Assembly: GCA_015227615.1 (NCBI GenBank)
Contig: JAALGZ010000008.1
Span: forward strand, 1,514,478 to 1,578,477
Reading direction: 5' to 3'
Length of the DNA: 64,000 nt
DNA from: Labyrinthula sp. Ha
Taxonomy: Eukaryota > Sar > Bigyra > Labyrinthulida > Labyrinthulaceae
Below are positions 14,641-50,505 of the stretch, one piece after another (the stretch's first letter is position 1; every line of letters begins with the position of its first letter). The notes beneath the pieces were generated by a model. That model was not told where the DNA came from. It did no database searches and saw nothing but the letters and a program-made list of their open reading frames with translations. The position numbers and the translations under genes were made by a program.

Positions 14641-14670
14641 GTTGTTTCGAATTGCGATAAATTTGGGGAA
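14641..14670 (-). promoter_or_regulatory. Shared bipartite upstream motif, NUP98 copy
   Basis: On the - strand: TTCCCCAAA, 11 nt, TCGAAACAA. It ends 49 nt before the ATG. The same two boxes with 11-12 nt between them precede transaldolase, the BED gene and TSR1, always in the sense orientation. Core promoter or transcription-start element is the likely role (inference). Confidence 0.65.
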
Positions 14671-14739
14671 TTTCTTAGAAAGAAACATCTTTTGTGTGTC
14701 TCTCTTTTATGGACATAATTTGAAGAACCACTTCTGGTA

Positions 14740-16560
14740 AAGTTAACCAATGCAACTTTGAGCTTGAAGAAGAAGATCTGGATCTTGTAAAGATAGTTAT
14801 TCCTCTGGAAAAATCATATTTCAGAAGAAAATAGTCGTGGACAATGAACTCACTGCTATCAGGGGACTCAAGAAACTTAATCCATCTGCACAAGCTCTAG
14901 CCAACTCCATATCTTACTTGGAAGCCATAGTATCAATTGGAGAAGAACCAATACTACCGAAAACACGCCGTCATCTCAAACACCAACCCACCGAGCAAAC
15001 GAGAACCAACCTTCAGCACAAGAGAATCAGGACCTGAACAGTAGCCAGGAAACAATGATGGGACAAGAACCAGAAGGACCCCAAAAGAAGGATACTACCA
15101 AATCTCATACTTCATCCGAGATACAATACCCGAAACATCTCCACTAACAATAGGTACAAAAGTATCTCAAGCTTAACCACAATAGCAACTGCAAGAATAA
15201 CTCGAGGTGGCGGAGGAATGAGTTCACTAGATTATATGCAACTCCTTGAACATTTAGAGGAATCTACCGCTGGAACCGAAGGACACCTAAAAAATACAAA
15301 TATTGAATCTGTAGCACCAATACGTAGAGAAAAAGCAGAAGCTGAACATCTTTCTTGAGCGGAAACCACTTCAATAACATTTAAGGAAAAAAACAGAAAA
15401 TGAAAAAGGAATCCCCCAGTTACCAAAAGAGTAATCCACAAAATGCCATAGAACGTTTCAAAATCACCTAAAAGCTACAAAAAACCTTACCTTTCAACAG
15501 AATATATAACCTCAATAAGACAGAAAAACTTCGAAATTCCATTAAAACCTCTGAACAATACTTGGATGCAGAACCTTGATATATAGAAGAGCATCCAGCA
15601 AAGAATGCAAATTGATCAACAGGATGTGAATTCTGCTCAGAACATGAACAGGTAGTATATAAGGACGGATAAGAAGAGCAACTTGAGAACAAAAACCTCT
15701 TGGTGGCTTGAAGCGGAAACACATGAAAATCTTTCATATTTTGTGCAATGTTTCCTTTTTTAATTTTAATGCGGATTATAAGATCTCGACTAAATTTTGG
15801 GAGATCGTAGAATTGGACCTTAAGACAGAGCTTGACCAACCATCTTCATGGAATCATACAACTGAACCAATCAGAGGAGGATGCTAACATGGAACCTAAC
15901 GGAAAGATCAATGATCAAGCCGAATTCATTCTTGTTACCACAGCATGAAGCTCCTAATGGTATTAAAAGCCCGTGATAGCGTTAGGCTAAAGAGCCCTTC
16001 CAAACTACCTAACTCACCACAACTGTATTGATATTGCTTGGAAGCTGTGAAATTGTTTGAAAAATCTTAAGATTTGGTTGAACAATCCTGCAAGCATTTT
16101 CTTAAGAACCATCAAGACCGTCGATCTTAGGAACTCTTGATAGTGGCATTTGCCGCCGAGAAAATCCAAGTTACCGAAGTCGAGCCTGAAAATACTTGTA
16201 GCATTGCTTTCAATATGAAGGAATAAGCTATCATCATCCATCATTGAACCAGTTCTATGCATAATTGTGCATTAGTCAACACTCATGCAAGAGTTAAAGA
16301 ATTTCACTTAGTCGATTGGTCAGACTTGGACTAAGAACGACAGGAATCTTGGTCTTATCCACCAGGTTGAAAAGGAAAGTACATCTTATTTTCTAAATAT
16401 CACCTCAATAGTTGATGGAAATTTTACTGACATTTCTCATATGTCGTTCAATACATTATAGCCTCAATCAGTACCTCTACTTTAGAGTTCGAGAGGTTTA
16501 AATCCTATGCTAGCATTGAAAATGAATTGTGGGCCTGGTGACAGCAAGTATATTGCTATT
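14740..16560 (+). pseudogene. Decayed coding-like region, possibly retroelement gag
   Basis: The + strand has purine-rich, codon-like composition and repeated short open stretches broken by stops and frameshifts. Examples are MDNELTAIRGLKKLNPSAQA from 14837, and protein-like pieces near 16030-16250 and 16450-16560. The charged, Gln/Asn/Lys-rich pieces would suit a gag or structural protein, but no zinc knuckle or catalytic motif is visible. It lies head to head with NUP98, starting about 70 nt beyond that gene's upstream motif. Confidence 0.35.
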
Positions 16561-19500
16561 TAGACACTGTACAATTATAAGTAACCATAGCGTTTGTTAC
16601 TGGACAAATATGTTGCAGAGAGAACAACTTACTGACATACGTTTTCTTTTCATGATATAGATGTGCTTCTAGCCTCAAGAGTTTGATAGTAGGTTTAAGT
16701 ATTTATAAAAACAAAAACTCTGCCCAAAAAAAGTATTTTTATCTTAGGAAGACAAAGCTAGTTAAGAGTTCCTTGGAAACACGGGAACACAGGTTGGAGC
16801 ATTGGCTAGTTCATGGAAACTAAAAGTGAAGTAGAAAAATAAGTGTCAGTAAGGTGATTAGATGAACAAAATGTACTTCTAGCCGGATACTTATTTTCAC
16901 AAAAAGATTAGTCAACAGCATCAAAAGTTGATTAGCTTAGAAATTCATTTAATGATGTTATGTTAGAATGTAGAACATGAACAAGCTAACCCTATTCTTA
17001 AGATTAAACTGCCAGGAGCAGTTGCTCAACCCATAGAGCCTGTATTGTTGCTTCTAATGGGTTATAAGTTTACAAAATTCTCTATAAACAGCTCTAGTTA
17101 AATAAAACGGTCTACAAGCTTTCTTTAGATAATATTTTATGTTTGATTTGAATTTTCATTTCACATCGCCCTTGACTGGAAAATTATTGAAATGATGATG
17201 GGGTTTTACACTGGAAACCAGTTTAAATCGGGATGATTTCCGGTCGAGCTATTAGCTTGCAATAAGGTAACTTAAGTAAGCACAGAATTTCTTCGACTGA
17301 GAATACATATATTTACTTAATCTCCCTTCAAAACACCTGAAGGTAATCTGTTGACATGTGCAATCTTTTATTATAAATATTCTAATAACACAATTACTCG
17401 TCACTAACAATGCCTTTTTTTTTTCGGCAAATCTAGATATATAGTATTCTGTGTTATTGTAGTATTATAGATTAGGCTAGAGGATTTTTGCATAGAATTA
17501 AGTCCAAAGAAATAAATAATGTTAGTATTAAATTCTTGAGAGTGTGTGGCATTCCATTTGATTAAGCCGAAAAAAGAAAAATAAGTTGTAAAGAATCCTT
17601 TCAGTGTATCGCTATCCCTCTTATATTTACTTTCCTAAAGCATAAATTGGGACTCTGAACATAACTATCCCAAGAATTCAACAGGCAAGAAAGCCATATG
17701 AAAGCCAAGCATTGAAGATTAACTGTTTTTACATAGTCAAAGTTTTATGTTGAAGACTTTATTTTTTCTAAATGTTCTATGTTATAGAACTATTTGCTTT
17801 TCGTGTATCTCGAAGAAAGAGGGTTAACTAATCACCCAAAATTATTAGTATTGACTATGCTTTCTATGTTTATAGTAGCACCTACTAGTTCTTAATAGGT
17901 TATGGATATACTTTGGGCCTTTTAATCGATTAACTTAGGATATATTTAAATGTACTCAACTAGTTCCATTGTCATATTAACTTTGACAGTTGTCGTCATC
18001 GGATGCTGAGACGGCAATATAGTCCATACACATTTCAACTGTGTATATAACCCGACCCATTAGTGTAGTAACAAATATAATTGTGATCAGAATCTTATTT
18101 TCTATTATGATAACTTCAAATAGAATTTTAGATTGTTTTACCATGAACCATACAGATATGACATATGATCATGCATCTAGTTGGCTGATATTGATTTCTA
18201 GTACTTATTGGTATAGGTTTCCAATGAAGCTTTCTATAATTTTCGGAATACAAGGTTCCATATATAAAGATAAGAAGATAAGTCTCAAGGCGAGTTCCCA
18301 AGTCATATAAAGATTTGCAAAAAAAAGTGAAAATGGCTACAGTTAACTTTCTGACGTCTCATTCAGATGAGGAAAGGTATTTTTCATTATAGCTTTGGAA
18401 AAATAAAGATAATATGTTTGTGACTATGTGAAATAGTTAACTATTTAAATTCTTTTTCTACCGTTTTTTTCACAAAAATCTTTTTTCTAGCTTGTTTAGT
18501 CTTTAACATTTTCCCGAAGAAGCTCTAAAGTTCTAGTTTAATACAGGCCGAAAATAACTTATAATCTACACGTTTCATCAATACCTTCAATAGTGATGAT
18601 GCCATATCATTAGTCTTCAACAATGTATACGTTTGAAAAGATGTATATACAAGGAGACAAGATAATACATATATATATTAAAAAGTAATTGCTTTAGATT
18701 AAAAATGGGTAAGAGCCTGATCCTGGGATAATAGTTAATGATTTGAGAGATGAACTCCTCGCGAAATAGTGAAACATATACTGTTAACAGAATATCACGT
18801 TTTGAACACAAAATATCGGAATTAGTATTACTTTATGGATCTGTACATTGTTAAGCTAGGTACCAGATATGCTCACTTTTTAAGAATGTATGCTCAGCAC
18901 GTAGCCGTTGCGAGATTATAAGTATACATTCTTATTGATGTTTCATACAAGCATTGATGCTTGTATTTGCATGAAGGGTATCATTATGTATTTACACACC
19001 TGTTTACCTCTTGCAAATAGTTTATCCCATAAAAGGTACGAATCTATTTAAACCAATACCATAGACGTAGCTAAGTAAAGTTTATTCTACTTTTTCTTTA
19101 TTTTGAATTCAAAATCAAGGTTTTCAAACAAGGTGAGGATTTAAATTTGTGTGTAAGAATGCTTTGTGCATTTGATTTTATATTGTTCTAAATATCTGAA
19201 ACCTCTAAATAGCTACAAAACTAAGCTGGTACACTAATCAAACCAAGAATTAGTTCATTTTTTAGATTTGTGCAACTAATATTTTATTACTTTGAAAGCA
19301 TCTCTTTCTCAGTGTTGCCTTTTTGGAAAATGTTAGAAAGCTTTCAACAGTAATGTGGAAATTTGGGGGGGTTACGTGAGTTTCAAACTATACCCATATC
19401 CATGTTTGAGATAAATTGGTGTTTCCAACTAATAGATCGCATTTAAGAATCTATTCTATTAGCGGAATCAAAGCTTTGAAGGCAAATGGCATTATATATA

Positions 19501-21949
19501 TATGAAATAGCGGTTTAACTAAACGATGGCTTCAAATTGGTTTGAATCCACAGTATGTATTGGTGTACAACTGTGTCAATGACTATAATTTTAGCTCTAG
19601 CAAAGGGGGAATACTCTGTTTTACAAGTTATAATATACATATAGGTCCTATCTAAAATGGGTTCTGTTGGAACTATTATTAACAACATCTCATATACATA
19701 GTTTGAAGGTTCAACATATATTTCCTATTATATATAGTTGTTCTAGCAATCCTAAGCTACTTAAGAGAATCTTAAGGAGAATCAACCAACTTTATAACAC
19801 CCTTGCCCTTAAAACAGTAGTAAAAGTTAGTTCTTAAATTTTCATTCTAGAAATGAAGGCTCTGCTTAATCATGGAATTCTAGCAGATTTAATTTAAGAT
19901 TACACCGATCTAAAAAAATGTAACTCTCAGAATTCCCAACTTAGCTTTTCAGATGAAAACCCGCTACATCTCTTGGTCTCAAAAGGCACTTTATGTTAGA
20001 GGAAACTTTTATTACCTGGTATTAAAGAACATCTGTAGTTAAATTAAAAGGTGTAATCGCTATTACACTCTTTTTTCCAGAATAAGAATATACTGAAACA
20101 GCACCATTTTACTATTAAATTCTACCAACAAAATCTAATGGAAAAAGCGAAAGAACAGCATTCAGGATTTATATCCTATAGTACAGTGGAGCTATGCAAT
20201 GTCCTTCTCAATAGAATAATTAGATCATTCTAACGTAGAAAAACTATTTTTTTATAACATTTAGCTACCAGTAAGCTATTCATCTGATTCAATTATGTTG
20301 TATTATTAGGCCCTCAACTCCCATTCCATGTATATACACTCATTCAACTACATTTAAAATGCTAAAAATATTATTTATAATCTTGAAGTGGTGGACTTTG
20401 GAAGTACCTGAACCCGAGCATTGACAAAGTCATTACTATCAGCAAACTAACGATCCCCAAATTAGAGAGAAAGTGTACCATGAGGTTATATATGTAACTA
20501 TTTACTATTGGTCATTAGAGGTTGAAAATTTGCAATATATATTTGTTAACTTATTATCGGTTATCAGCTTAGCCTTTGAAACGTCTGTATGTAGCCTTTA
20601 GATTCTCAGGTTCGAGTCTATAATAAGACTTGCAACCAAATTCAAGGTGATAAAGATGAATACCACAACTTGAAATACGTTAAAGTTACTTCCTTGGATA
20701 TGTGGCAGAATACGTCCAAATACAAGGCTTAGAATGACATTATTCTTAATCATTTCAAAAATTTATTCTTGCTTTTTCATGCAGTTAAAGCAGTCACTTA
20801 CTTCCAAAAATTTGTTTAAGCAAATCACTTATGATACGAGCAAAGTGAGAATTAGTTCAAGAGATCTGTTGAGTTCAATGTACTGAGACTTAAGAGTCCT
20901 ATCGTATTCCTTCTCTTAATTTTTCCTGCATGTGATTAACCATTGGAATACCTTTTGCTTTCAACCTTAAGTTTATTTCTCGCTGTCGATTATTTTTATG
21001 TTAGATTTTTTTGGTTCATGCTAGATATCTTATTCATATTTCTTCATCAGTGGAGGTTTTGTGGTAATCTAGGGTTTGCAGGATTCAGCTGCTAATTTTG
21101 GATGAAACATATTCAGGGCATTGTAATAAAAGAGATCATTTTCTGGAGTGTATGAATACTTAAGAGTTGCCATTGAGAAGTGGACTGTTCTTCTGAATAT
21201 CCTTCGTTTACCCGAAGTCACCCATTATGTCAAAGACAATTTATAAATGCTATTACATACGGCATAAAGATTGGATCTTACAGACTATATATGCAAGTTT
21301 TTAGACTTTTTATCTGAGCATAGACATTCCTTCTTAACATTTGACCAAGGTTATAGTATTCCGAACACTATTTACTCAAAAGAAAACAAAAACATTAATT
21401 TTTCATTAACTGCCTTCAGAGGGTCCAGCAGGTGCAAGGGCAGTCATTCATCTGCTAATATTCTTTGATAAGATAAATATTTTAAGAACACGAAAGGAAG
21501 GCGATGAAAGTTCCACCCCGGTGTAATCAGAAATAGGTTCTATTAGGTTGTGGTGTTGTAGACCCAACTTGACCTTGAAACGTGTGTTTAATGCCTATGA
21601 ATTCTTTATAAGCTTGCCCTTAGCTTACCTGTTTATTTCCGAGAGTATCTCTAGAGTCATCAAAGAAGTTGAAACCAGTTCGCATCTAGAACAAACTCAC
21701 AAGGGCATAAAAATTAAGTGTTATGACATTTTTGTACGAATAAAGTCAAACGATCTGACAAAGAGATATAAGTAACCAAGAACAAACAAATCTTTGGTTA
21801 TATATTTGTAATACTTTTTTATTTAACTCTAAAAACTAGCATACTTATTTTTGGTAATAACCAATATGTCTTTTTTGGTACAGAAACAAGATAACATAAA
21901 ATTGAAACAAATTGAGAAATTGTGGAATCTCCGTCTCCATTCAATTCAA
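16561..21949. other. Long gene-poor AT-rich stretch
   Basis: No reading frame with a recognisable motif. Frames near 18041-18310, 21271-21468 and 21548-21775 are open by chance-like composition. I see no RNA gene. A tRNA-like phrase GGTTCGAGTC near 20610 lacks the rest of a cloverleaf. Confidence 0.5.
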
Positions 21950-21979
21950 TTGCCCAAAATATTCTTTATTCGCAACAAC
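21950..21979 (+). promoter_or_regulatory. Shared bipartite upstream motif, transaldolase copy
   Basis: TTGCCCAAA, 11 nt, TCGCAACAA. It ends 64 nt before the transaldolase ATG, and its first 13 bases are identical to the BED-gene copy on the opposite strand. Confidence 0.65.
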
Positions 21980-22043
21980 CAATATCTGACAGAATAGAGA
22001 AAAGCAAACCGAAAAACCGAAGATAAAAATCTAAATTTCGAAG

Positions 22044-23105
22044 ATGGCTCCAGAACCGCAAACAAAGAAAGCTAAAACATCTAGTAATGAACTTGAACAA
22101 TTAAAAAAACATACTATTGTTGTTGCAGATACAGGAGATATTGATTCCATCAAGTCATTCAAACCTACAGACGCAACTACTAATCCCTCCTTGATCCTAG
22201 CTTCAGCTACAGATAAAAGATATAAGAAACTTGTTGATGAAGCAGTCGCCTTTGCTTCCAAGGAAGAAAATCAAACAAAATATGCTATTTCAAACTACAA
22301 GTCCGAGAAATCTGAGAAAAATGGTACTAAATCCGAAGACGGAGATGTTCTTGGATTGGCAATTGATAAAGTCTGCGTGAACTTTGGAGTTGAGATTCTG
22401 TCTCATATTGAAGGATTAGTATCCACAGAAGTAGATGCTCGGCTTTCTTATGATACGAGTGAATCCGTTGCTCGGGCAAAAAGGATTATAGATCTATATA
22501 AGGCAGCTGGAATTGAGAAAGAAAGAATCCTCATTAAGTTGGCATCAACCTGGGAAGGTTTCCAAGCAGCTGTTGAATTAAAGAAAGAAGGAATAAATTG
22601 CAACATGACTCTGTTGTTTTCATTTGCTCAGGCAATAGTTGCTGCTCAATCTGAAGTTGAATTGATTTCTCCTTTTGTTGGGAGGATTAGAGATTGGTAT
22701 GTAAAGAATAGAGAGGGAAATTTTATGGATGCAAAAGAAGATCCAGGAGTATTGAGTGTAACTAAGATTTACAACTATTATAAAAAGTATGGATATAAGA
22801 CAGTTGTTATGGGAGCTAGTTTTAGATCTAAAGAAGAGATTATTGAGTTAGTTGGATGTGATAAGTTGACAATTGCACCTAAATTCTTGAAAGCGTTGGA
22901 AGAAGGAGAAAGTGAAGTAAGTTTGAAGTTATCTAAAGATAATGTTGGAGAAGTAGAGGAAAAAGTAGAACTTACTGAAAAGGAATTTAGATGGAGAATG
23001 AACGAGGATCAAATGGCTGTAGAAAAACTAAGTGAAGGAATTAGAAATTTTGCAAAAGACATTGTGAAACTTGAAGTTATGCTCAAGGATTTAATTAAGA
23101 GTTAA
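22044..23105 (+). CDS. TAL1: Transaldolase
   Basis: 353 residues. Transaldolase moves a dihydroxyacetone unit from sedoheptulose 7-phosphate to glyceraldehyde 3-phosphate in the non-oxidative pentose phosphate pathway, normally in the cytosol. Family motifs are all present: DATTNPSL (about 43-50), [20 protein letters not shown] with the Schiff-base lysine K165, [21 protein letters not shown] and [14 protein letters not shown] near the end. It is closest in style to animal and fungal class I enzymes. The N-terminal QTKKAKT is a basic patch like the nuclear-localisation tail of animal enzymes. A Lys/Ser/Glu-rich insertion (about 86-101) makes it longer than the typical 315-337 residues. Single exon. 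The last 15 bp overlap the end of the convergent BED gene. Confidence 0.97.
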
Positions 23106-23585
23106 ATGAAGGGTTACTGGAAGGTTCAAAGTAATAATAGCTTTATTTTGTCTCAAATTTACAACTTGGTCTCTAATTTTTCCAGTTTCTACATGAAAAA
23201 TAAGTCTATTGATCCCTCCACCTTCCTTACGTTCCCCATCTGCTATCTCTGCTCCAGCAGTAAGATTAGATGTTCCTGAGCACTGACGAAGAACGTGCCA
23301 CCGCATTGAGGAAGTTGTTCCCCCTTTGTAAATGACTTCTTTTCCACACTGTTTACAAAGTACACTGTCCTCTCTATTTGGGTTTGGTTCAAAGTATGAA
23401 TGCCATTGGGATCTCTTTGCTCTAGTTGTTTGTTTTAGTTGTTCAGGTGGAGAAGAAGGAAGTGATAGTGGCAATGGAACTGTCACAGCAGTATTTAGAT
23501 TTACCTGGGCTTCAGCATAACTTTTACCTATGGTTTTTCTCTTCTTTAGAGCCGGTTCCACTTGAATACTAGGTAGTTCTGCCAT
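23091..23585 (-). CDS. BED-type zinc finger protein, small
   Basis: 164 residues from the ATG at 23585. A frame is also open further upstream, but the shared promoter-like motif lies inside it at 23631-23660, so I prefer this ATG. A basic, Pro/Ser-rich N-terminus leads into a BED-like finger: [10 protein letters not shown], then C-x2-C (CKQCGKE), then [10 protein letters not shown] with H-x4-C. BED fingers bind DNA and occur in transposases and in domesticated chromatin proteins. No transposase catalytic region is present here. The C-terminus is short and without motif. It is convergent with transaldolase and overlaps it by 15 bp. A solo finger of this size could be a domesticated transposon fragment (inference). 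Confidence 0.75.
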
Positions 23586-23630
23586 TGCACTGAAAATATC
23601 TCCCGATAGCTTTCTTTCTTTTGGTGTCGA

Positions 23631-23660
23631 TTTGTTGCGATATGCCGATATTTTGGGCAA
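23631..23660 (-). promoter_or_regulatory. Shared bipartite upstream motif, BED-gene copy
   Basis: On the - strand: TTGCCCAAA, 11 nt, TCGCAACAA. It ends 45 nt before the chosen ATG. Confidence 0.65.
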
Positions 23661-26600
23661 TGGAATCAAGTGTAAGATGAAATAGTTTCTAAACTAAAAA
23701 GTTATCAGTATTTTTTTTTGATAAAAACCTGGATTATAAGTAGGAGAAGTTATACCATTATTACTCCTAAATAGTTTGTTTATCTTTTACTAAATTATAT
23801 AAGGCTCTTAAAGCAATATTATACCTTTAGAATATTATTGGGCTTGCTATACTCCAATTAAGATATGTCAGAAACAAGTTAAAAGTCATGAAACAGAGCA
23901 GAACGAGGAAAGTGTGACTAAGCATAGAGAAATTTAAATATGAGTTTATTTTTTTTTAGTTTTAAGCTTATAATTGCTAAAACTCTTGAACTTAAGAATA
24001 CATTTTTAAAGCTCTGAACTTTCATTTAAGATTACAAGGGTATAGCATAAGCTAATCTAAACTGAGAATTAAACACAACAAGTTCGAAGAAAATTTTTAA
24101 TATATTTTTAATTCATTAGGATAGCTTTTTTATTTGAAAATGCTTCAGTCCGCAAGGAAGATATATCCAGCTTGTTGTACCATAGACACGTAGTTTCTTT
24201 TACTTTGGCCTAACATATGCCAACAAGGTAGAAACACTTCTACTAATAAGCTGCTTGATATATTAAAAGATAATTTAGCGATAGCTAAATCAATTTATGC
24301 AGAGATAATATGCACACAAAATACATTATACCGGTCACAGCTCTTGGGCTCCGAATTATAATGTAGAAAAAATCTATCCATAAATACATGTTTTCTTTCT
24401 GTGGGCTCATATCTATCGGTTACGCTATTCCCTTGATTTAAAAAAAAAAGACTTACCAGGATTAGAAAGTTCATTTAATTTCTTTGTTAGACTAACATAG
24501 AGTAGTTTATATTCGGAGAACAGGTCACTTGGTCCATGTTCTGCAAAATCGCATCGAAGAATCATGGTTAAGATCCGAAATAAACTGAAAGGTAATCGCA
24601 TATGAGATTATGATTAGAATACGAGAGTCAAAAGAATCGGATAATTTTAGTGAACTTTGAATGTTCTTAGTAATATGCAAATTAGGTCAGCTAGTCCTGC
24701 GTCACGAAGTCTTCACATACAGTACCACAAGACTCAAAGCATGGTTTTTCTAAAGCTGCCGGAACATTAACAGAGCCTAGATTAATAATGCAAAATTCCA
24801 AACTTGAACCTCTGACTTTTATCGTGTACCCATTGAGTTCAAAAATAATTTTTTTTCTTTAGAACCCATGTAACTTAGATGGAGTAGTTGATTTGGGATG
24901 AAGCCAATGACGTTTCCTTCAGCTCAATTTTAAGAACTAGATATTGGTGGTTTCCCCTCAACATTTTTTTGAACTTTTAAGTTTTAAATTATGAGCTACG
25001 TATAATATATCAAGCTAGCATGGCACGAATTGTTGTTGTTTGAAAATTGCAGAAGAATCCGCTAAATTGTTTTCTCAATTATTAAGAGATTCCTTCATAA
25101 TTATACGAAAATTAAATGGAGCATAATGCTATCTTTCTCTAATCACTGTAAGCAAAACAATGATCGTTCGATCAGCAGAGCTGTGAAGTTTTCTTATTAC
25201 TATCTATTAAGGCAGATCTGATTACATCTGAAACAACAGAGCTCAGAGTCGACACTTCAGACTTGAATCTGAACTTCAAGCAAACCGAGAAATCAATACT
25301 TAGACAAGTACAAGAACTTAAATCTTTATCAAAAGCCGCGCCATACTTGGTAGTGGGCTTTGAGCAGTGTTTTAACTGGTGTATACATCTGCATTTTGAA
25401 CGTGTCTAGCTGCATACCCTATTTATATACTCACATTCTACTCGATGTAAGCTAATGAACAAATGGCAGAGGTTGCAGGTCTGGAGAATCTATTTGGCGA
25501 TTTGAACCGACTAATTGCCTCTAGCAAAACATTCTAGGCAAGAGAAGTATGGAGGAAACTCTCTTTCAATATTTCATAAATGTCATAAAATACTTTTCTT
25601 AATAGAGTCTGGATATCGTCCAGCAGATTAGGTGAAGGGTATCTTTAAGAATAACAAGTATTGTATCCTTAGATTTATACAATTTTCTTTATACACATTT
25701 AGGAATCCCTTTTATTTTATTTCTTCAGGTACCCTAGTATCATAAAGTCTTACGTATTCCATAACATATTTAAAGTAGATTAATAATTACTCTAAAGAAT
25801 CTAAAGCTTTAATTATCTTGATTTTTTAGTTGGTCTCTTGATTTCTATAAACATCACTTTCAGAAACTTTTACAATATATTACCTTAGCTCAAAATATTT
25901 CGTAGGGAAGCTATAAGAATCAGTGCCAAAGCAAGATTTAATAAGACTGCTTTTTTGCGGAAGTGACACACTATTTAGATTCTAGGTATATTTTAAAGTT
26001 CCTCATAATTTTTTTACTTTTCGAAATAGCAAGATCAAGAGTATACTTTAGGATTTAGCGTGGATGTGTTGATTCATAGTATAAACAACACTAAAAAGAG
26101 GCTAGGCAGTGAGCTTCACACTATTATATGCAGTCTTTGATGAATTATATATTTCACAATTAGTATATTTTAATAATTTATGTATTGATACAAGAAATTA
26201 CGTATTCGTTCACATCCTTAAACTTTCTTTATTCTTGGTTAGTCAAACTAATTGAGATTTTCAAATTCCAGGTTAAATAATGCGAAACACTCTAAAAAAA
26301 TAACCACATGTTATTTTAAACTAAAAATAAAACAATATCAATTTATTATTGTTAACTTTACAGTATATTAAAATTCAGAAACATGTTAGTATGGGCCATG
26401 TGACCATATACCAAGCAGTGTAACAATAGCCCAAAATCCTAACGTTACCATTAAAATATACCAAATAAAATTATTGTAGCCTTAGTTAAAGAGAAAAAAT
26501 TTTCACTATATATAGAAGTTAAGAAAAGTATTAAAATGGAAAAATTTATTAAATTCAAATATAATATAATTCTGATTCATTAAATATAACCAACCAACCC

Positions 26601-38249: not shown

Positions 38250-39510
38250 ACTTCTTCAGTTTTAAATTAAGGCCCTAGTTTCTAGATAGCTTACAAATAC
38301 TGTTAAGAATAATACTCTATCTTAAATAAGTTCAATACAAAAAAAACACCTAAAGTCATAGATTAAGATTTATTCTAAGTAGAAAGTCATATTCCAATCT
38401 TATAAGTACTTCTGTTTCATAGCACAACCACCTGAAGTTTTCCAGTTATAAAATATTTGGTTGAAATAAAATATTCCAGAAGAATACTAGCTATAAATTA
38501 TTTTGTTACCAGAAAAAAACGAAGATAACTAGCTTTTTATTTCTGAATCAAGTAGAGGAACTGGTATTCTTCACACAATAGAAATCCATTGTATTTACTC
38601 TTTTCATCATTTTTAAGTATAGTATTTATTGCTATAGCCTAATCACTGCTTCAAGCTAATTGCTCCAATTTGTACAAGAATTCATTTTTTAATATTCTGG
38701 CAAAATCCTATACAGCCCTTTCAAAGTATTCAACCTATATTTTTTGGTTCCAAAATTCAAATGTGTGTTCATCAAGTTTTTATGTATATTGCTCATATGT
38801 TTTTCTTTTCTTATTATTAAAAGTTATCACACTTCAGCATTCACATTATTTTCCTCTCTTGATTTTCTTTTTTATCAATATGAGTTTTTATAGTCTGAAC
38901 AAACTTAAAGTACCTTTTAGTCTAATAGTTTCACTCAAATAATGTCTTAGCATTTCTTCATCATGTTAACTTTGCATTGAAGAGATAAACCAAGTTTATT
39001 ACAAATAAATGAATATGTTAAACTGCTCTGCAAAGACACCAAGTTTAATATCATTCTCTTTTAATTTGATAGAAGCTATTCATATAACCTTAGCTACTGT
39101 GTAAGTAATGTTCTTGAATAATAAATAGCTTGATATTATATTTTTTGTTAATCTTGTCTTTTCCTTCATTCTAAAATATATATTTTACGTTTATGAATGA
39201 AATAAAAATATTTATACACTGTTTATGTAAAACAGCAAAAGGTTCTTTTCTTTATCATATTCGGGAGATAACAGAATATATAAATAAATATTTACATAAA
39301 ACTAAAGTTTACTCGTCCTAAGTAAACAATCATCTTATTTATTATAATATTGGGTTTTTCCAAATATTAATCGGTTCTTTTTTCATGTACTGTTCCAGAA
39401 TAACATTATTTTTTTATGTGTGGTTTGTTCAATATAAATGTTCCAGCTTTGAAAGCGGATAAAAAACAAACTGTTTATTTCAACCAATAAAAACATATCT
39501 AATTAATAAA
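38250..39510. other. No gene recognised
   Basis: AT-rich spacer. The + strand frame 38670-38942 is hydrophobic and low complexity, and I do not support it as a gene. Confidence 0.5.
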
Positions 39511-39945
39511 ATGAAACCTCCAAGAGCAAGAGATATACAAAAAACTTCAGTATTTTCTGTAAGACAAGTGAAAAACACTATAGAAATTGCGGAAAGAGAG
39601 TCAAGATTGTTCAAATTGCTCATTCTGTTGAATATAAGTTTCCTCATCATTGAACTAACTCTTGGCTATATCTTTTTACCTTCAAAAAATACACCTTTTT
39701 TAAGCCCCACAATATCTCCTACGTTCACTACAACCAATCAACCTAGTTTTGTTCCTACATCATCCCCTACAGCTTCTCCAACAAATAAACCCACAATATC
39801 TCCTACGTATTCTCCAACTAATCAACCCAGCCTTTACCCTACAACATTCCCAACAGCATTTCCTACAGATTTCCCAACAGCACATCCAACAAGCTCCCCT
39901 ACAGATGTTCCTAGGATTGGAATATCATTGACTGAAGATCAGTAA
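39511..39945 (+). CDS. Signal-anchored protein with PT-x-x-PT stalk, lacking the Cys module (family member 4)
   Basis: 144 residues. A basic N-terminus, then one helix (about 34-56) ending YIFLPSKN, nearly the same as in the gene at 37686. The rest is a repeat of SPT/PT units (for example SPTASPTNKPTISPTYSPTN), the kind of stalk common in surface proteins of stramenopile algae. In member 3 the stalk is followed by FSLSTNELEKLCDLC. Here the matching ISLTEDQ is followed at once by TAA TAG. So the Cys-rich module is missing: either a truncation or a stalk-only variant. I found no Cys cluster in any frame just downstream. Start: first ATG, preceded by AATTAATAAA. Confidence 0.65.
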   Translation: MKPPRARDIQKTSVFSVRQVKNTIEIAERESRLFKLLILLNISFLIIELTLGYIFLPSKNTPFLSPTISPTFTTTNQPSFVPTSSPTASPTNKPTISPTYSPTNQPSLYPTTFPTAFPTDFPTAHPTSSPTDVPRIGISLTEDQ

Positions 39946-41018
39946 TAGTACTATGAAGTTATCAGAGTTATGTTAGTAGTGTTCAATCTGTTCTTAAATA
40001 TAAAATCAAAACACATAATAACCATCTCTTCGAATCCGTCTATATCTTAAAACCTATTTTCCTTGTTAACAGGATACAAATCTACGGTTATATGCTCTTG
40101 TTTCATGAAAGTTCCAGGTCTCTCTGCTTAAAATAATATCTAGTGCGCTGAAGTTTAATTTTCATCCCTAGCATTGTATCAAATTTAAATCTTTCTGTGC
40201 ACGAAAGTAGCCTTCAACAAAAAAGTTCATCATTATTTTCAAGTTTTGATGGTAATGTTCAGTTTCTAACATGGCATATTTCTCTTAGAGAGAGTATTTA
40301 GAAAATAAATTTATCTAATAGGTTTTCCCTACTAGAGTACTATCTCCATGAACCAAATATATAGAAAAAATCTTCTTATAGTGGGAATAAAGTAACTTCT
40401 CGTTACACTAAAACAAGTTGTATCATTAAACCTTCCATACACCAAGGCTCTTCAAGAGCCAATAATAGATTAGAAATGACATAGGAACATGTACCTCTTT
40501 ATGCTTCATCACTTATATTTCATCGATACAAAATTCGTTATAGGCATTTCAGGGTGGTACCTATTTCGCAGTATAATTTCCCTTGGGGAATTAAAGACGA
40601 AGTAATCTTAATTCATATTCTAAGAGAAAGTATTTGAAATATGATCTTAGGAAGAAAGCCAGTGCCAGGTTGTGTCAACATGTTCACTAAGTATTTAAAA
40701 CTTTCTTGAACATGCTTTGGTATAATTTCTTTTTCTTTGAAATTCTTTTCTCAGATACAGTGAGTAAAAGGTTAGAAGTAAATGTAACTCTTTTTCAGCA
40801 AAATTTTTTTAGTCATTTATTATGGAGGTTCCGTGACATTACCAATTGAGGCGGACGACCCGATCCTGTACGATCCTACCGTCTTGCTTACACTCCCTAC
40901 ATTAAAAATGTTGCTGATTTTTTGTTCCCTAAGTTAACATATACCTTGGGGTGACAGGATTACTGTTGTTCCACGAGCGTTTCACTTTATCCCGGTTCTT
41001 GTGCTAAGTTTCCCAAAA
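39946..41018. other. Mostly non-coding; possible upstream exon or remnant at 40799-41018
   Basis: AT-rich to about 40790. From 40799, after a pyrimidine tract ending CTTTTTCAG, a + strand frame of about 45 protein-like codons (GGSVTLPIEADDPILYDPTV) runs to a TAA at 40935. It reopens directly in the same frame and joins the frame starting at 41019. GC is raised here. This could be part of the next gene with an unresolved intron. Confidence 0.35.
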
Positions 41019-41704
41019 TGAAGTCCGGGGGAAAGAAAAAATAATAACAGGGATGATATTAAAGGTTGGATATGTGTGAAAGGTGCGACAAGGATTCAGG
41101 GACCCGTGTGTGACATAAAATGGCTTATTTTAATACATGGGAGGTTATTTGACAGTTTGGGCAGCCTTGGTTCCTATTACTTGTTTGGATATACTGGTGT
41201 GTTTGGAGTATTTTGCTATATTCAGCCAAGTTTAGGAAACATATTTTTCAGTTTGCCAAAATATCTTCAACTGGTTTTTCAAAGTATTTTGTTATCCACA
41301 AATGAGTTTCTAGTGCCGGTTTCTTGTTCAACTTGTTTTATTTTCTTTGTTCAACTCGTCTTGTGTTCTTTGTTCTACGATTTAGAAGTAGCGTATTTGC
41401 TGATTTTATTCTATCATGTCGCTAGCATGTGGATAATGTTGCTAGGTTTATTGGTTAGCAGAAAGTGTTCAAGGATCATTATATTTCAGGTATTTTTGAA
41501 AGTATCAAACGCTTATTCCTTACATCTCTTCATGTTATATTGATCTGTACATTCCGGCCTCTGTCAGTAACAGCTAATATTTTCGCATTCATTTTGTCTA
41601 CGATCTGTTTCTGTAGCATCTGCAGAGTTACTGGCTTAATTCTACTCGCAATCCATTGCGGGATATGTATATACTCGTTAGCAGTAGTTTTCTATGATTT
41701 TTAG
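41019..41704 (+). CDS. Possible multi-pass membrane protein, gene model uncertain
   Basis: An ATG at 41019 (context CCCAAAATGAAG) opens 175 codons. They have a charged N-terminus and then several hydrophobic helices. The frame ends at 41543, but a second hydrophobic frame from 41465 to 41704 overlaps it. A 44-nt GT..AG segment at 41446-41489 would join them in phase 1 without a stop, although its 5' end (GTTTAT) is weaker than the GTAT of the other introns. The frame is also open upstream of the ATG to 40938. The order W-L...G...FDSLGSLG, followed by helices, recalls the GPI-synthesis subunit Gpi1/PIGQ only vaguely, and I do not assign it. A decayed gene is the main alternative. Confidence 0.35.
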
Positions 41705-44339
41705 ACTCGATCTTAAGAGCTACAATCGTGCTGCGCACTCTGTAAGTTTTAGTTAAACCTTGATGAAGGGATTGGAACAAAAGAATTGTTACTTCAATGG
41801 AGCGGAAGTTTGCTTGAGAAAAATTCAATCTAAGGCTTTGTTTCGGCTGACTTTTGATATGCCTTAAAAAGCCTTTCGGCACCTTTTTTCCAACTTCTTG
41901 GAGTGATATCAGTATGTACAAAGGTTCATGCAAAAATTTTACTATTTCTATAAGAGCTTGCATTGAGCAAGGCCACCTAGCTTTAGTTAGGGTGCTTCAA
42001 CATATACTTTTCATCGGTTCGTAAATTTTAGAAGACGATGTGCACGCTGAGTAGAAATAAATTCAATTTTAGAAACCCAAAATGTCGTTTCTCTGGTTGT
42101 CCAAGAAGGCAAGAATCAAATTATTGCCTCTCAGATATTTTCATAGTTTGGATTCTATTAGATAGAGAGAGAGAAAACAATTTCGCAAACTCTATTTGTA
42201 GTCAAAGATAAATATCTATTTATGTTTTTTATACATTAATGATATTAACCAACACAGAGTGTCTGGAATTAAGCAGTTCACAAAACGTAGCTAAGAAGGG
42301 ATTCTACTGGAACTACAATCCGAGATAGTAAACGACAGGGAGAAAGTCGAACTAAACACCAATGACTTCAAGTCAAATTCTACAATCAAAATTAATTTAT
42401 TCCTCCAAGTTAATAAGTCGTGATAAAGAGAACGTATAGGTAAAATGAAATATTGTCAAATTAGAAATTGAAGCTATTATCTCCTCTAATAATTAAAGAT
42501 TAAATATTCTCATTGGAGTACAAGATCAACTAACTTGCTTGTAAATTTCTATCTGTTTGAAATTCACTTTTAAAACTAGTTTCTAGTTTCTTAATCTTGG
42601 ATGAGCTATATCAAATATCACTACTTACTATAGATTTCTCCCTTGTTTAGATCTTCAATTAACTGAATGCTCTATTGCTTTTATTTATAAAGTAGTCACT
42701 ACAGCATCGTATTATATTTCTCAATCAACATAAACAGTCACAAATATCTTGATGGAGATAGTTTAGACCAATCAGAAAAATTATACCAACATATACGTTA
42801 TTTTAGAAACTTTTCCTTTGATGTAATACAAGATCTTTAGGGGATATTTTTGACGAAACTCAATCTCCATTCGAGACAATATTCTTGGGGTAAAAAACTT
42901 AGATAAGAAACTATTGCTAAATTTGATACTAATAATAGCCAATTCAGGAATAGAAGATACCCATTTGGTATTTTTAATCAAGAGAAAGGTGGAACTCTAC
43001 TACCCATAGTAGCCAGTACTACATTTCTCTCTGGAGCAAATAAGTATTTCAATACCTAATAAATGAAATTCTTAAGGCCGCAGCTTATGGTTGAGAAAAG
43101 GTTAACTAAGAAATTTCTTCTAACACTTTAATAATTTCTTGGGGAAAATATTCACAATTGACACCTGAAAATTACCTAAGAAGTTCTTCAGAGAGAACAG
43201 TTCAGCCATTTTCCCTGGGGTCCATCAAGAAATAATACCACTTGGTGGCTAACCAGTGTTATATATTAGTTTGTTAATACACTTTAATCATTTAATTGAA
43301 TCTATATCTATTCAAAAATAGTAAAATTAGTTTTTTAGTTAATATAGAAGCTAAACAATCTATGCGATTATTGCATGGATTACCCAATAATCTGTATATA
43401 TTTTCATTAGCGCAAACGTGTATAATCAACCTTATTTTTCATATATGAAAAACTTGTAGTCAAAAACTAACTCCTAGATTACTATATATCCTTGAGAATA
43501 ATCACTTATTATTCACCAGAGACATTTGTTGCCTAATGACAATTATTTCATAATAGGAGTACATGATTTATGTTGACTGCTTAGCTTCTGAATTTGGAGA
43601 ATAATCAAAAAAGTCAAATGCAAGGTTTTTGTTTCATGTTTTATCGAAGCTTTATAGTTGCTTTGAGAAAGTTAGGCTGTAGTAATACTAATCAAGGCAG
43701 AGAGATACACTTGCAAATATATTGCAGGTAAAATATCATGATAGCAGGTCGTAATACTTGTTGAATTGTATACTATTGAGAATACTTTCATCCATCAACG
43801 AAGCCATTCCACTAACATAATAAGGTTAGATTCAAAGTAGATGAAATGCTATTTTAGAGCACTTATTTCCAATCTAGATCCTATTTCTCATGGGTCAACT
43901 TAGCAGATATGATAATATCCAGTTTCTCCGAATTATCTGGGCTTATCAATATCTAACACAGTTCTCGCGATCTATCAAAGCTTATAATAACCTGTTCTGG
44001 CGCCGATACGAAACTTCAAGAAAAAATCGTTGGAACCTAAATAAGGTGATAGTTCTCAAATATGATATCATATTGTTGTTTATTCCTTACTACGCTGCAA
44101 TGGATCTGAGTAGTGAAAATTTTTTGTTGAAATTAGAGTAGAATGAAATTAGAAATGATATCAGCAATATCAAGTGCCAAAAATTCTTCCAAATATCTGA
44201 AAAAATGCATGAGATTTCATCACATCATCATACTTATTATATCAACTCACTATTTAAATTTTAGTATTTCAAATTTGAAAAATGTTAAACCAGATAATCT
44301 AAGATTTAAGGTTCAAAGGCTTGAAAGGAGTTCCATGGT
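41705..44339. other. No gene recognised; adjacent short frames at 43890-44349
   Basis: AT-rich. Two + strand frames, 43890-44141 and 44143-44349, follow each other almost directly, each with an ATG and polar, protein-like content, but show no motif. They may be remnants next to the LINE that begins at about 44340. Confidence 0.4.
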
Positions 44340-47300
44340 GCGGGGATAGTTGTGCATAGTGACCTAATCATATGAACATGTGATCTTGCTCTCCTTAGTC
44401 CTACCGCATTCTGATTCTTGAAGTATATCTCCTTTGCCATTTTCCTGTGTGTTGGTGTTAGTTGCCTGTTCCATTTTTTTTGCTCGATTCATCTCTTTTT
44501 ATTTTCATTGCATTTTTTCTCGTGTCATCCTTCCTTGTCTCTCAGTAGTGTCTTAGCCCTGTCTAAATAACATATCAACATTGTGCGAAAGTCTTATTAT
44601 TCACGGTACTGTAGTTTAACTTCTACTTGTTACGCTGGTATTACATCCTCTGTTGTTCAATTTTACAAAATCGATAAATACTGTGATTTCGGTTCAAAGT
44701 TGTGATTTTACAAAATAGATAACCATTAATAGCTGCAACAGAATACGAATAGATTGAAATCTTGAGCAGTTGAAACAACACGGTAATCTCCATGTTGCTA
44801 TTGGACGCTGTCTACGAATCCTTGTCTGTTGAGTACAAGAAGATGGCCCAGTATAATTTGGAGAACCTGGCTGTCTTAGTCCATCTCGGATATGACCATT
44901 GGTCGCTGGTTTTTTTTGGAAACTTTGGAGCTGTCTCCTCATTTCAGTGGACCTATCTTCAGATTTACTGTTATTTGGACAATTTTGATTTGAAGTTGGG
45001 GTTTGGTTCTTAGCACAATACTTCAGATAATATCTAATTTGAGTTGAATTGCGACGATACCAATATTCTCAACTTTTTATCCCTAAGGAAGTGTTCTTAT
45101 CCTGGTCGTTGGATTTTGGTTCTCCTATCTTTGGATTATATAGCTCGGATATTTCTTGTTTTTTTTGAAAGATATCTGGTTCATCTCATTTAAGCATTAT
45201 ATCGTAGGTAATTTTCAGATGGAGAGATTATTTAAAAAGTTTTATTCTTCTTTTTCCACTGTCCTTTATTTTATGTTCCAGAGATCCAGATACCGGTCAA
45301 AAGGGTTTCAGTTCAAGCCGCTATGTAGATATAGCAGCTGCAAGAGTTTCATTTTTAGTTGTTGCTAACACTTGTTGTTGTTATTACTATTTTTCTGTAT
45401 GGAAGTGAATATTCCTGACACTGTTAATTTTGCTAGCCATTCAGTTTTATTTTCATTCCGCAAGTTTCAGTTTAGGAAAATGTCGTGTGTAATGAATTTT
45501 CTTTTTGTTATTGATGATTTAATTATTAGACAGCTGTAACTTAAAGTAGAAGAATTTGTTTGTGAAGGTTTTGATTCTTCACTATTTTATAAATACTCAA
45601 TAATCTTCGGATGAGAGAATATTTCAGACGCTGAGATATTGGTTGAGTGTGTATTCCTATATGTATTTGACTATGTGCTATACCTTTCTGCTTGGAGTTG
45701 TTCAACTTCCACTTCATTTTTCCTATATCTGGTTATCCTTTCACGGAGTATATTCAGATTATTTGTCTCACCTTGTACTATCACTAGCCTGTTATCTCTT
45801 ATATTTTCTTTATATTATTATCTTTTCTTCATAGATTGTAGAGTTTTACTCTTTATCCCAGAGTGTATATCTCACTTATTGACGCTGTAGAGTATTTGAA
45901 CCAGAACCATAAAATATACCACCACTTGTTGTACTTCTTGGCTTAGTGAGATTAAATTCGGATATGTTATATATTTTGTAGAGCTTGTTTAGTATTTATT
46001 ATCTCTAACCTATTGGTTTCTGTATCTATTCCGGAAGCGTTGAACACAGATTCGAGGTATTTGAACTCAGTTACCCCATTATGTTTTCTCCATACAGAAT
46101 TATATGCTTATCTTTGTCTATGTGTAGTTGGATTACATTCTTCGCGTGTACATGACATAGTGTTTCGCTTGCGAATTTATTTCTTACTCCGTCGTAAAAC
46201 CTTGACGTTCAATGACAATGTAAGGATATTTATTGGGGAAATACCGGTCATAGAGAGCACTATAGGATTTTTGCATCAGCCTATTAACGAATTCTCTGGG
46301 TGCTTTGCCGCTAACTATCATTAATCTCTTTATTTTCATTATTTCTACCGTTTTTATATTTATCCTTAAGATACGAGTTGTTTCTACATTATTTGCTTAT
46401 TCAATAAGATACTGGACATGTTTTATATTTCTATAAAAAGCTGAAACATTATTGGCAAATGTCCTGAGTTGAGTATTCTGATTGTTAAGGGATATATTCT
46501 GCATGATGTTTTCTCTTGCCTCTTATATTATACTATCTAGAGTAAGGGTAGAGAAACATTGAGAAGGAATACCTGCTACATAACTCCTTCGTTGACATTC
46601 GCTTCTTTAATCCTAAATTCAGCTTCTGTGACTCTGGACTTGGTTAAGTACTAAAATTATTTTATTTTATGTTGCAGATACTGTGACACTTTGTGTTTTA
46701 ACAGTGGTATTTCTATGACCTTTTTTTTGAAATAAAATAGAAATGTTGCTTGAAGTTGGTAAATATATATTTATAGCAGCCCCTTATGTGATTTCCTTTC
46801 TTTACTATTATTTTTTATACTTCTATCTTATGCACTGTGGAGCTTGCAGGTTTATATTCAGGATAATAATATAACAGATTCTGCAAGGTTGAATGGAGTC
46901 TGCTAATTATTATCTTCGTTATTACTTTAAAAGAAGTATTTAACACGATCATTGGTCTGAATTTAGCTGGATATTTAGGGTTAAGTTTTCTCTCCAATAT
47001 GAATGTTACTTTCATATTACAGAGGGTGAATTCACCATTCCTCTCTAGCTTCTCTTTTCTAAAGAAAATTTAGGTCATATCTACTTAGTGATTCTTGAGA
47101 TCTGTCTAGTACTTTAGCAAATGATTTGCAATCTTATATTCGCCTGTCCCTTTCTTGTACTTTAGATTTTTTTTTTAATTTCTAGGATTTCATGTATTGT
47201 TGGATGCAGTTTTTAATGTTGTGTTGAGCCAGTTTGGATATCTAACTGTATGAATATGTGGCAATTCTCTAATAACTCCTTTGGAAAGGTTCCTAATTTT

Positions 47301-48870
47301 GAGTTTACATATCTATGCATATTTTGATTGTATTTGTTAAATGCCTTGAATCTTTTCCACTTGAAAAGTATTCATGTTTTTGTCCTTCGATAACTTAACG
47401 GTACTAGAATTACATTCATGGAAGCTTATATTAGTACATAAGCTTTCCTGGTATCATCGGTGTCAAAATTTTCTTCGATTTCTTGTGCATGTTTCACTAT
47501 TCAGGTTCTTATATGTCTTCCTCCTGCTGCTTTTTCCATGTTTGTTCTAATTTTCCTGTCCAGGAATCATTCTCCAGTAACATCTTTTCTTTCGTGAAAT
47601 TTTCAGTATTTTTCTTGATGAGTTGAATATGTTAAAGAATCTGACACTCTATTCCTAGACTTGTTCTTTTATCATTTCACATATGGATTCTATTAGAATG
47701 CTATAATTTATCTGCCTCCATTTAATAGCTGGTGTGTTTATGCTAAAGTTTCTGGTTGCTTAATTCTCTTTTTATTGGATGAATGGAGAGCGATTTGATT
47801 TATTGTTTTTTTATGTATGTTTATATACTGGAGAGATAAATCTACTCTGATTCTCAAGTAATCCCGGCCAATCACGTTCCATACTTGCAGAGCTATAACT
47901 CTGTCTATTTTCATTTTTACCTGCGCAAGATATGAAATCAGTAAGAATTCTATCTCATATCATTTTGTGCTTTTATTTCTTGGTACAAAGATTACATTTC
48001 CAAGATTTTCAAGTTTTTAAGTTCTAAAGTCTTGGCTTACGATGTGGATGTTATTTTTCTTTTTGAGCTCTTTGATTTTTTCATCATTTATGCTGATTCT
48101 CAAAGAGTTTTTGAGCTTTTTAAACTTATTTGGTAGTTTCTTCTTTACTTGTGAGTTGAAATCTCATACATCTAATATTAAACCTCTCTTGTTCATCTTC
48201 TCAAGTAGTTTATCTTGTGCATCTTGAACGAACTTCATGCATTCTGCTGCAGGTTTACCAAAATAAGAGATATAAAAGTTGATCCACATCTGAGTTTTCT
48301 TTGAGGATGACTTAAACTTAAGGACCAAATTCCACCGCTCCCTTTATAGATGCCGTTTACCATCATAAGAAAGTGTTGGCTTACGAAGCTTGCTTCGCCA
48401 CAAGACCTGGAGTTGACTTCTGAAGCGAATCACCTACTAGGACCTTTTTGACTGACTGTTTCGTTGGTTCTGTTTACTCTTTCAACTCTTCTTTGAATCA
48501 CTTCTTGAACAAGTAAAACTTCCAGGAATGGCGTCTTAGGAGCGTCATCAGTTTGAGCACTACGTCTATATTAAGTGAGATCACAAATATTCAGATACAT
48601 TTTTCTGAATGGAGAGTCTTCTTTATGTCACTTTATAATGTTTTTTTTGGGGGGGGTAGGATGCCAAAGGAACCTAGTATCAGGCTCAGAAATGTTGTTG
48701 TTAACAATCGTCTCAAGGTTTGTCCTAGATTTACTTAATCTAACGAGCCATGGCTGGATTTTGATATTTGGGGGCAACGCATTGTCTTATAAATACAAAT
48801 GTTATTTTTTGATGGGAAAATTAAGTTTTTCTTACAAACCACATTTTGAATCGTTTGAGTGTTGAGTTTA
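44340..48870 (-). mobile_element. Decayed non-LTR retrotransposon (LINE)
   Basis: The - strand holds a long stretch of broken coding sequence in LINE order (boundaries approximate). At 48100-48270 lies an endonuclease-like piece (FVQDAQDKLLEKMNKRGLIL). At 47300-47900 is a charged linker. At 46815-47015 is the first RT block. At 46440-46590 are the GIPSQ block and a degenerate FADD box (read FANN). At 46010-46080 is FKYLESVFNASG. Stops and frameshifts occur every few dozen codons, so it is old and inactive. The + strand is T-rich for the same reason, which makes spurious hydrophobic frames there. No poly-A tail or target duplication is identified. Confidence 0.75.
46815..47015 (-). pseudogene. 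LINE reverse transcriptase fragment
   Basis: A 66-codon open frame with the LINE RT signature: NPKYPAKFRPMIVLNTSFKV, then ITKIIISRLHSTLQNLL. This corresponds to the conserved R-P-I-x-L-x-N...K-I-x-x-x-I-x-x-R-L block. It is the best-preserved piece of the element at 44340-48870. Confidence 0.75.
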
Positions 48871-50474
48871 TTTGAAGACATTGGCATCTATCTCTAAATA
48901 GTGTCTACAAATTCTTAAAAAATTCTTGCTGGATCATTCTCTGTATACAAAACATAGTCACAAAAGACACCATATCTGTTTTAAAAGATTAAACTTTGAT
49001 TTATCTAAACAATTATTCATATAAAATATATTATTGGTCACATGTACTACTTTGAAATCTTCCAAATTCCAATTAATTTGGCTGAGATTACTAAAAAAGG
49101 AGAGACGAAGTATTTATCGGAAAGCTCTGTTAATGCATTGAATATAAAGGTCTATTATATTATAATTAAAGAAATGAGGTCAAAAATAGCGGATTGCTTC
49201 TTTTAGCAATCTAGCAGTAGCTCCTTGGCGCAGAAAATAATTTTCTAATATATACTAAGATCTTGTCCTAATGTCGTTTGAAATTTAAAATTTAGCAAGA
49301 AGGAACCAAAAAAACAAATGTATTCCGGATAATTCTATTATGCGTAACTTAGTAGATTGAGTCATCTAAATGAATTCGAGACACCCATATTCCTTACCTA
49401 TTCCGTGAAATATATGTATATATCCATCTTTATAATCAAGTGTGCTTATTAGCTACTTTCTCCTGACGGGAAAAACATGCGCGAATTTTTTTTTATGATC
49501 TTAGTTATAAAATACCAGATCTAAATAATAATTAAGAACTCTATTATCTTCCAGTAGAAAACTTCATATTATTTCCTTAATCCAGTTGAAAATATTCATT
49601 CAGGCAACACTTAATTAATGATGTTTCTTTCTCTTTAGCATGGAATACTGATAAAAACCATATTTATGAGTTTTTCAGTTATCGCTGGAAAATTTTAATA
49701 TGGTTAACGTTGTTGATAATTTTTCCACAGCTGGACACATGTTAACTCTAAGAGGTTATAAAACCATCATTCATTTCTTCACTGCAAGATTGTTTGAATT
49801 AAAGTTCATTTATCTAGTTTTATATAACTAGGATGATCTCTTTTTAACGAAAATATTAATAGATTTGAGCTTTATAACAAAATTATTTGACGAGATGAAC
49901 TAGAATATTAGAAATGTTCCTAATATCTTCAACCCTTCTTTTAGGGCCTGTTGAGAACAAAAGAGATCGGATATACTGCAAAGAAATTTCCTATATATAT
50001 TTACAGTAGCTTTAGAGTTAATATATGAGTTTCTGCAGATTGTCAAGAAATTTGTATATACCTTTTTCAACATAGATAAAACATTAAGCACATATAGACT
50101 AAAGAAAATACATTCAAACAATGAATTTAAGCTTATGAAAAATTATTGATCTTACTTCTTTTCTGACAGCTAAGTTTTTTATACCTCGATATTTTCTCAA
50201 GCTCAACAATACCAAGATCTCTAAAGGTGTGAGAGGAAAAGAGTTCCACAATCGAAAAATGAAGAACAACCTGTGTTGAATACAATATCTTATGGTATTC
50301 AAGTTATATAAATGTGTTTTTCTTTTGTTTATATTTATGTTATATTAACCTATATAGATTCTAAATAAAGTTCAATATTTTTCTATTAATATCCTGTTTT
50401 TATCCATAACTCTCTTTAGATTACATCTTCTTCAAAAATGGTGTACATAATAATAATGGGACAAATATATCAAA
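48871..50474. other. No gene recognised
   Basis: Very AT-rich sequence with no coding or RNA feature that I can support. Confidence 0.55.
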
Positions 50475-50505
50475 TTACCCAAAAATAAAAGCATATTGAA
50501 ACAAC
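50475..50505 (+). promoter_or_regulatory. Shared bipartite upstream motif, TSR1 copy
   Basis: TTACCCAAA, 12 nt, TTGAAACAA, ending about 34 nt before the ATG at 50539. This copy has one extra spacer base and T for C in the second box compared with the other three. Confidence 0.6.

Follow-up and report, generated by a model that had tools for sequence, protein, structure and literature searches.

The question raised by a 64,000 nucleotide (nt) stretch of the Labyrinthula sp. Ha genome (contig JAALGZ010000008.1; hereafter the window) is whether two short sequence boxes that recur together ahead of four unrelated genes, encoding NUP98, transaldolase, a BED zinc-finger protein and TSR1, form a single promoter element. 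The boxes, box A (TTGCCCAAA and close variants) and box B (TYGMAACAA), are separated by 11 or 12 nt (N11 or N12), and an earlier reading of the window (the original prediction) had taken them for a bipartite core promoter or start-site element of constitutive genes. We found box A to be the core of an element that occurs throughout the genome, ATTGCCCAAAAT, with a variable fourth base, and the two-box arrangement to be a real, rare subclass. With a probability of about one half, we favour box A as a lineage-specific, oriented, TATA-less core-promoter element that would lie at the transcription start site, with box B as a putative accessory in a small subclass.

All four predicted two-box copies were present, with coordinates that were off by one at one end, and all four lie in the sense orientation relative to their gene. 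Their position close upstream of the start codon also held, the distances being 34-65 nt rather than 33-64 nt when counted between the last base of box B and the ATG (50 nt for NUP98, 65 nt for transaldolase, 46 nt for BED and 34 nt for TSR1). Taken singly, both boxes occurred in the window at near-chance frequency at up to one mismatch (133 matches against 117 expected for box A; 100 against 91 for box B). Pairs allowing up to three mismatches were more frequent than expected at N11 (7 matches against 1.74, a number reached in 0/100 shuffles) and at N12 (9 against 1.88, with 0/100 shuffles as high). The peroxidase gene, which was thought to lack the motif, has a weak box A-like copy, GGTGCCCAAAAT, with two mismatches 170 nt upstream of its ATG; no box B was found there.

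The scanned genome comprised 50.8 Mb in 153 contigs (G+C content of 34.6% in 264 kb sampled). AATTGCCCAAAA-like words were seen ahead of further open reading frames (ORFs) on reading gene flanks in 10-kb samples, and the exact 12-mer ATTGCCCAAAAT occurred 827 times compared with 6 times for the reversed word. At up to one mismatch to ATTNCCCAAAAT there were 6267 copies against 1866 for the reversed control, a surplus of approximately 4400 copies genome-wide. Ninety of the 827 exact copies, two of them in the window, were read with their flanks, of which 82 were non-redundant and 8 were dropped as redundant; the invariance of the 12-mer in these copies is a consequence of selecting exact matches. 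Among 81 aligned exact copies the preceding base was A in 59, and no other conserved column stood out between -50 and +89 around the motif. Nor was there a TATA-like column in this interval.

Several other sequence features were noted around box A. Tandem TTGCCCAAA pairs occurred 32 times genome-wide (control, 0), seven of them with a 7-nt gap that gives a 16-bp register, and several of the 32 are clustered on contig C63. One repeat family has box A in a constant setting, cattggccgaattttcaATTGCCCAAAAT followed by a T-rich stretch and caaaccaacaaa, at L016, L020, L044 and L053, and more distantly at L097; a second family carries tcattggtca/cggatcgATTTCCCAAAA (L016:1188, L020:6871 and L022:7954). 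TAACGG-type words, which we take to be Myb-like, rank high near box A, with 7 against 1.05 expected upstream of the 82 non-redundant copies, and CCGTTA was found downstream of these copies 6 times against 0.65 expected (many words compared, uncorrected). GGCCATATGGCC-like words are found near box A in L016, L045, L061 and L099.

The relationship of box A to genes was examined using 200 kb of contig C1 sampled at even steps together with the window. A coding filter, trained on the long ORFs found there, accepted 55 ORF starts; retroelement ORFs and starts that were duplicated or internal are among the 55, and BED and TSR1 are not. A sense copy of box A with at most one mismatch was found at -150 to -1 of 7/55 starts (two in the window; 5/45 outside), compared with 0/55 at -400 to -251, 0/55 in the first 150 coding bases and 0/55 for the reversed word, and with 3/55 for the reverse complement upstream. 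At this stringency, oriented enrichment directly upstream of genes, as expected of a core promoter element, was observed. Start codons were also near: an accepted ATG lay within 300 nt of 36/82 exact copies compared with 22% of 4000 random positions, and an accepted coding ATG within 125 nt of 30/82 compared with 12%.

The genes behind the copies include those for eRF1, SSNA1, uS10, LYR, CIA30 and SMC proteins and an amino-acid transporter, and also a cobalamin adenosyltransferase, a RING-variant protein, a Myb-domain protein, a CoA-binding protein and an aldo-keto reductase. As regards the predicted restriction to constitutive genes, it may be noted that the transporter, RING-variant and Myb-domain proteins are among these neighbours. 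Of 20 proteins searched, 11 scored above the curated Pfam cut-off, one only below it (L043, CID) and eight had no match, among them the SSNA1 candidate. The names eRF1 and SSNA1 are presumptive assignments by sequence resemblance.

Two properties of the flanks bear on where transcription begins. In 20-nt bins the AT skew ranged from -0.20 to -0.03 upstream of the motif (T-rich), and switched downstream to +0.10 in the adjoining bin and +0.29 in the next (A-rich). Composition predicts 24.5 ATGs between motif and start codon in 23 genes, and 12 were counted; for the 140 nt preceding the motif the count was 49 and the expectation 51.4. For this count 23 of 33 ORFs were kept (score >12; L042, L085 and L114 removed by hand), and the start codon was the best-scoring ATG, in L092 not the first, a choice that could bias the result. 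From the flip in AT skew and the scarcity of upstream ATGs, the transcribed leader seems to have its 5′ edge at box A. Start codons immediately after the motif suggest, by their closeness, mRNAs beginning at or near box A: in L055 the ATG follows box A by 15 nt, with a LYR domain from residue 5; in L043 it follows by 2 nt, with a weak CID match below the Pfam cut-off from residue 17 and no other Met ahead of that match; and in L019 it follows by 6 nt, although here the start is less certain, as the domain match covers residue 63 onwards and residue 65 is the next Met.

In contrast to box A, box B was not a general feature. At N11 or N12 it was found with at most one mismatch in 0/80 non-redundant exact box A copies outside the window, which rules it out as an obligatory partner, and its mean number of mismatches there (5.83 and 5.85) was close to the 5.81 seen over all offsets. 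Box B is therefore not part of the ordinary element, and the idea of the two boxes as one unit gives way to box A alone, extended to ATTGCCCAAAAT, as the common element. The exact N11 form nevertheless occurred nine times genome-wide (three in the window) and the N12 form five times (one in the window), both with 0 in the reversed control. We scanned all spacings of 0-30 nt outside the window, which as the discovery set was left out, and found 10/23 exact co-occurrences at N11/N12 (six N11, four N12). With an altered pattern, in which the last A of box B was dropped and an A added to box A, the figure was 17/32 (11 N11, six N12). The binomial probabilities for two of 31 spacings are 6.5e-7 and 1.3e-12, respectively, for scans that overlap in places and are not independent.

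This peak depended on the orientation and order of the boxes: with box B reverse-complemented only 2/14 co-occurrences were at N11/N12 (Fisher p = 0.014 against 17/32), and with box B ahead of box A there were 0/18 at gaps of 11-12 and 2/18 at a gap of 10. We also noted that TYGMAACA stands one base before TTNCCCAAAA in 5 of these 18 co-occurrences, which is unexplained. A second box A in the place of box B was considered and rejected (0/32 tandem pairs at N11/N12). From start to start the boxes are 20-21 bp apart, equal to two helix turns, and the subclass comprises 23 exact N11/N12 places in the union of both scans, window included. Eight of the 17 altered-pattern N11/N12 sites outside the window were read in context, and of ten outside-window two-box sites with sequence, six had an ATG-initiated ORF downstream in sense, at 9 nt (L001), 28 nt (L002), 34 nt (L003), 93 nt (L007), 69 nt (L009) and 5 nt (L011), with a low coding score near the start in L002 and L007. 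The ORF at L004 is doubtful (31 codons), and none was found downstream in sense at L006, L008 or L010.

Since the motif is genome-wide, oriented, unlike a TATA box and near start codons, box A is best read as a promoter or start-site element, and this part of the original prediction is retained without its two-box unit. Direct observation here extends to the genome-wide enrichment, the orientation at up to one mismatch, the nearness of start codons, the compositional switch, the thinning of upstream ATGs and the box spacing in the subclass. In a class of protein-coding genes, box A would coincide with the transcription start and would recruit the initiation machinery; the inferred +1 is most likely within the box or directly after it, the A of CCCA being one candidate. 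Box B, 20-21 bp downstream on the same DNA face, may be an accessory in a small subclass of promoters, where it would occupy the position of a downstream promoter element (+15 to +23, counting from the A of CCCA as +1). Several results weigh against a start-site element. Orientation is clear only for good copies and is lost at up to two mismatches (8/55 in sense and 8/55 reverse-complemented, with 3/55 and 4/55 in the distal windows); 46/82 exact copies have no filter-passing ATG-initiated ORF within 300 nt, of which short first exons account for some, not demonstrably all; tandem copies in a 16-bp register are more usual for a transcription-factor site; the two-box copy of L008 is antisense, upstream of the nearest ORF; no clear initiator-like signal was found downstream of box A in the 82 copies; and in the filtered list of these copies the interval of 7-23 nt after box A is empty of accepted ATGs, which resume at 24 nt (L055 fell below the filter of this list).

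That last gap would suit a start some 16-20 nt downstream of box A, and it speaks for the version put forward by the original prediction, which would have box A as an upstream core element at approximately -27 to -19, the place of a TATA box, and the start within box B, at the CA of AACAA. With the N11/N12 spacing box A would stand as far from +1 as TATA boxes do, and the flanks are most A-rich beginning some 20 nt past the motif. However, L055 would then be almost leaderless, L043 would lose its start codon, as would L019 with its less certain start, and all 80 ordinary copies outside the window lack the box that should hold the start. We consider this version unlikely, and TYGMAACAA at +1 in particular fits badly with the ATGs of L043 and L055. 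Somewhat less likely again is that box A is the site of an abundant activator or nucleosome-positioning factor just upstream of starts, possibly bZIP/C-EBP-like, with box B as the site of a partner on the same DNA face. Here the ATTGCCCAA of box A resembles ATTGCNCAA, a bZIP/C-EBP-like word, and the tandem pairs (7/32 in register) and the reverse-complement copies upstream of starts, some perhaps belonging to divergent genes, would be natural. TTGGGCAA is described as a putative C/EBP-beta motif of the human alpha-SMA promoter in the portion of PMC7934236 consulted. The strand asymmetry around exact copies and the very short distances to ATGs are not what one would expect of an activator bound upstream.

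Dispersal by repeats or mobile elements, without selection for function, would explain the 8/90 redundant copies and the repeat family that holds the motif in several copies, but 82/90 copies are non-redundant and those with readable genes precede unrelated proteins, making this origin very improbable. The bipartite pattern as a chance find in A-rich leaders appears more improbable still: in its favour, either box alone occurs at near-chance frequency in the window and exact box A has no general partner in box B, yet the N11/N12 peak is sharp outside the discovery window and is not seen when box B is reversed or placed upstream. Returning to box A as a start-site element, we tentatively suggest, as a possibility well short of an even chance, that a large class of genes starts from the long, near-invariant ATTGCCCAAAAT, recognised by a general initiation factor, dedicated or diverged, and that in a subclass a second box, helically phased and 20-21 bp further downstream, has a tuning role. 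Few eukaryotes have had their core promoters described in detail, and a word so long and fixed would aid the calling of gene starts in this genome, would let the recognising factor be pulled down directly and would be a further example of initiation independent of TATA; the helical phasing seen in a subclass offers a clue that is precise and can be tested.

Features of the window and the evidence for each.
Feature	Position	Strand	Detail
Two-box copy, NUP98	14642-14670	-	TTCCCCAAA-N11-TCGAAACAA; pattern scan
Two-box copy, transaldolase	21950-21978	+	TTGCCCAAA-N11-TCGCAACAA; pattern scan
Two-box copy, BED-finger gene	23632-23660	-	TTGCCCAAA-N11-TCGCAACAA; pattern scan
Two-box copy, TSR1	50475-50504	+	TTACCCAAA-N12-TTGAAACAA; pattern scan
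Box A, NUP98	14660-14671	-	Variant ATTCCCCAAATT; originally predicted TTCCCCAAA is 14662-14670
Box B, NUP98	14642-14650	-	TCGAAACAA, N11 from box A
Box A, transaldolase	21949-21960	+	Exact ATTGCCCAAAAT
Box B, transaldolase	21970-21978	+	TCGCAACAA, N11 from box A
Box A, BED-finger gene	23650-23661	-	Exact ATTGCCCAAAAT
Box B, BED-finger gene	23632-23640	-	TCGCAACAA, N11 from box A
Box A, TSR1	50474-50485	+	Variant ATTACCCAAAAA
Box B, TSR1	50496-50504	+	TTGAAACAA, N12 from box A
NUP98 coding sequence	11118-14591	-	ATG at 14591; Pfam: FG repeats, autopeptidase S59
Transaldolase coding sequence	22044-23105	+	ATG at 22044; Pfam
BED zinc-finger gene, open segment from ATG	23091-23585	-	ATG at 23585; Pfam
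TSR1 exon 1 (predicted)	50539-50547	+	ATGACTTCT; ATG at 50539; from sequence
TSR1 intron (predicted)	50548-50579	+	32 nt, GT...AG, after codon 3; from sequence
TSR1 exon 2	50580-52703	+	Pfam: RIBIOP_C, AARP2CN

The gene names NUP98, transaldolase, BED, TSR1, MOB and peroxidase were backed by Pfam. The predicted TSR1 intron, very short and directly after the third codon, was placed on the grounds that MTS joins HQSSWLKQ... in frame once it is removed. Of the membrane-family pair at 4.7-7.6 kb, the ORF at 4673-5329, the sole member searched, had no Pfam match; its 3′ part is almost identical to that of the ORF at 6843-7580 (minus strand), and the 5′ parts differ. Similar copia-type retroelement ORFs lie at both ends of the window (1-1699 and 57654-64000), with several frames interrupted, and 58518-62156 encodes reverse transcriptase and integrase domains according to Pfam.

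Limited literature searches for the exact words and for promoter themes, chytrids included, showed no report of such a motif among the titles listed, an absence confined to these searches; whole-word matches were C/EBP-beta papers and unrelated titles. We considered as a likeness TNNGGGCA, which we take to be a THAP-protein site; the THAP domain (PF05485) had 0 matches in the genome and likewise none in 14 control genomes, making this result uninformative. C/EBP-like bZIP proteins bind palindromic sites of the ATTGCGCAAT type, which box A resembles in a half-site only. The reverse complement of box A, ATTTTGGGCAAT, contains the TTGGGCAA of the C/EBP-type site as given in the consulted portion of PMC7934236, but unlike that site box A is longer, oriented, near start codons and genome-wide. 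TATA-box core promoters carry a TATA-like sequence 25-35 nt upstream of +1, a position that box A could share if box B held the start, although box A has no TATA-like sequence. The Trichomonas core promoter likewise has two core elements and short 5′ leaders, with sequences unrelated to those of boxes A and B.

The nearest described analogue appears to be the oomycete INR/FPR/DPEP set, given for Phytophthora infestans as INR YCAYTYY, FPR MWTTTNC and DPEP SAASMMS in the portion of PMC3599244 consulted, to which the comparisons that follow are confined. By reading, box A fits neither YCAYTYY nor MWTTTNC, nor does it fit the metazoan initiator YYANWYY quoted there, as CCAAAAT breaks the sixth position with A for Y. 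The DPEP consensus fits CAACAAC of the transaldolase box B and by reading does not fit box B of the NUP98, BED and TSR1 copies. In the oomycete, approximately 13% of genes have the combined INR+FPR, and DPEP is found downstream of the start site at a mean distance of 26 nt (17 nt in the gene that was tested) (PMC3599244). What the two systems would have in common is the design, namely TATA-less, lineage-specific start-site elements accompanied in a minority of promoters by a downstream box.

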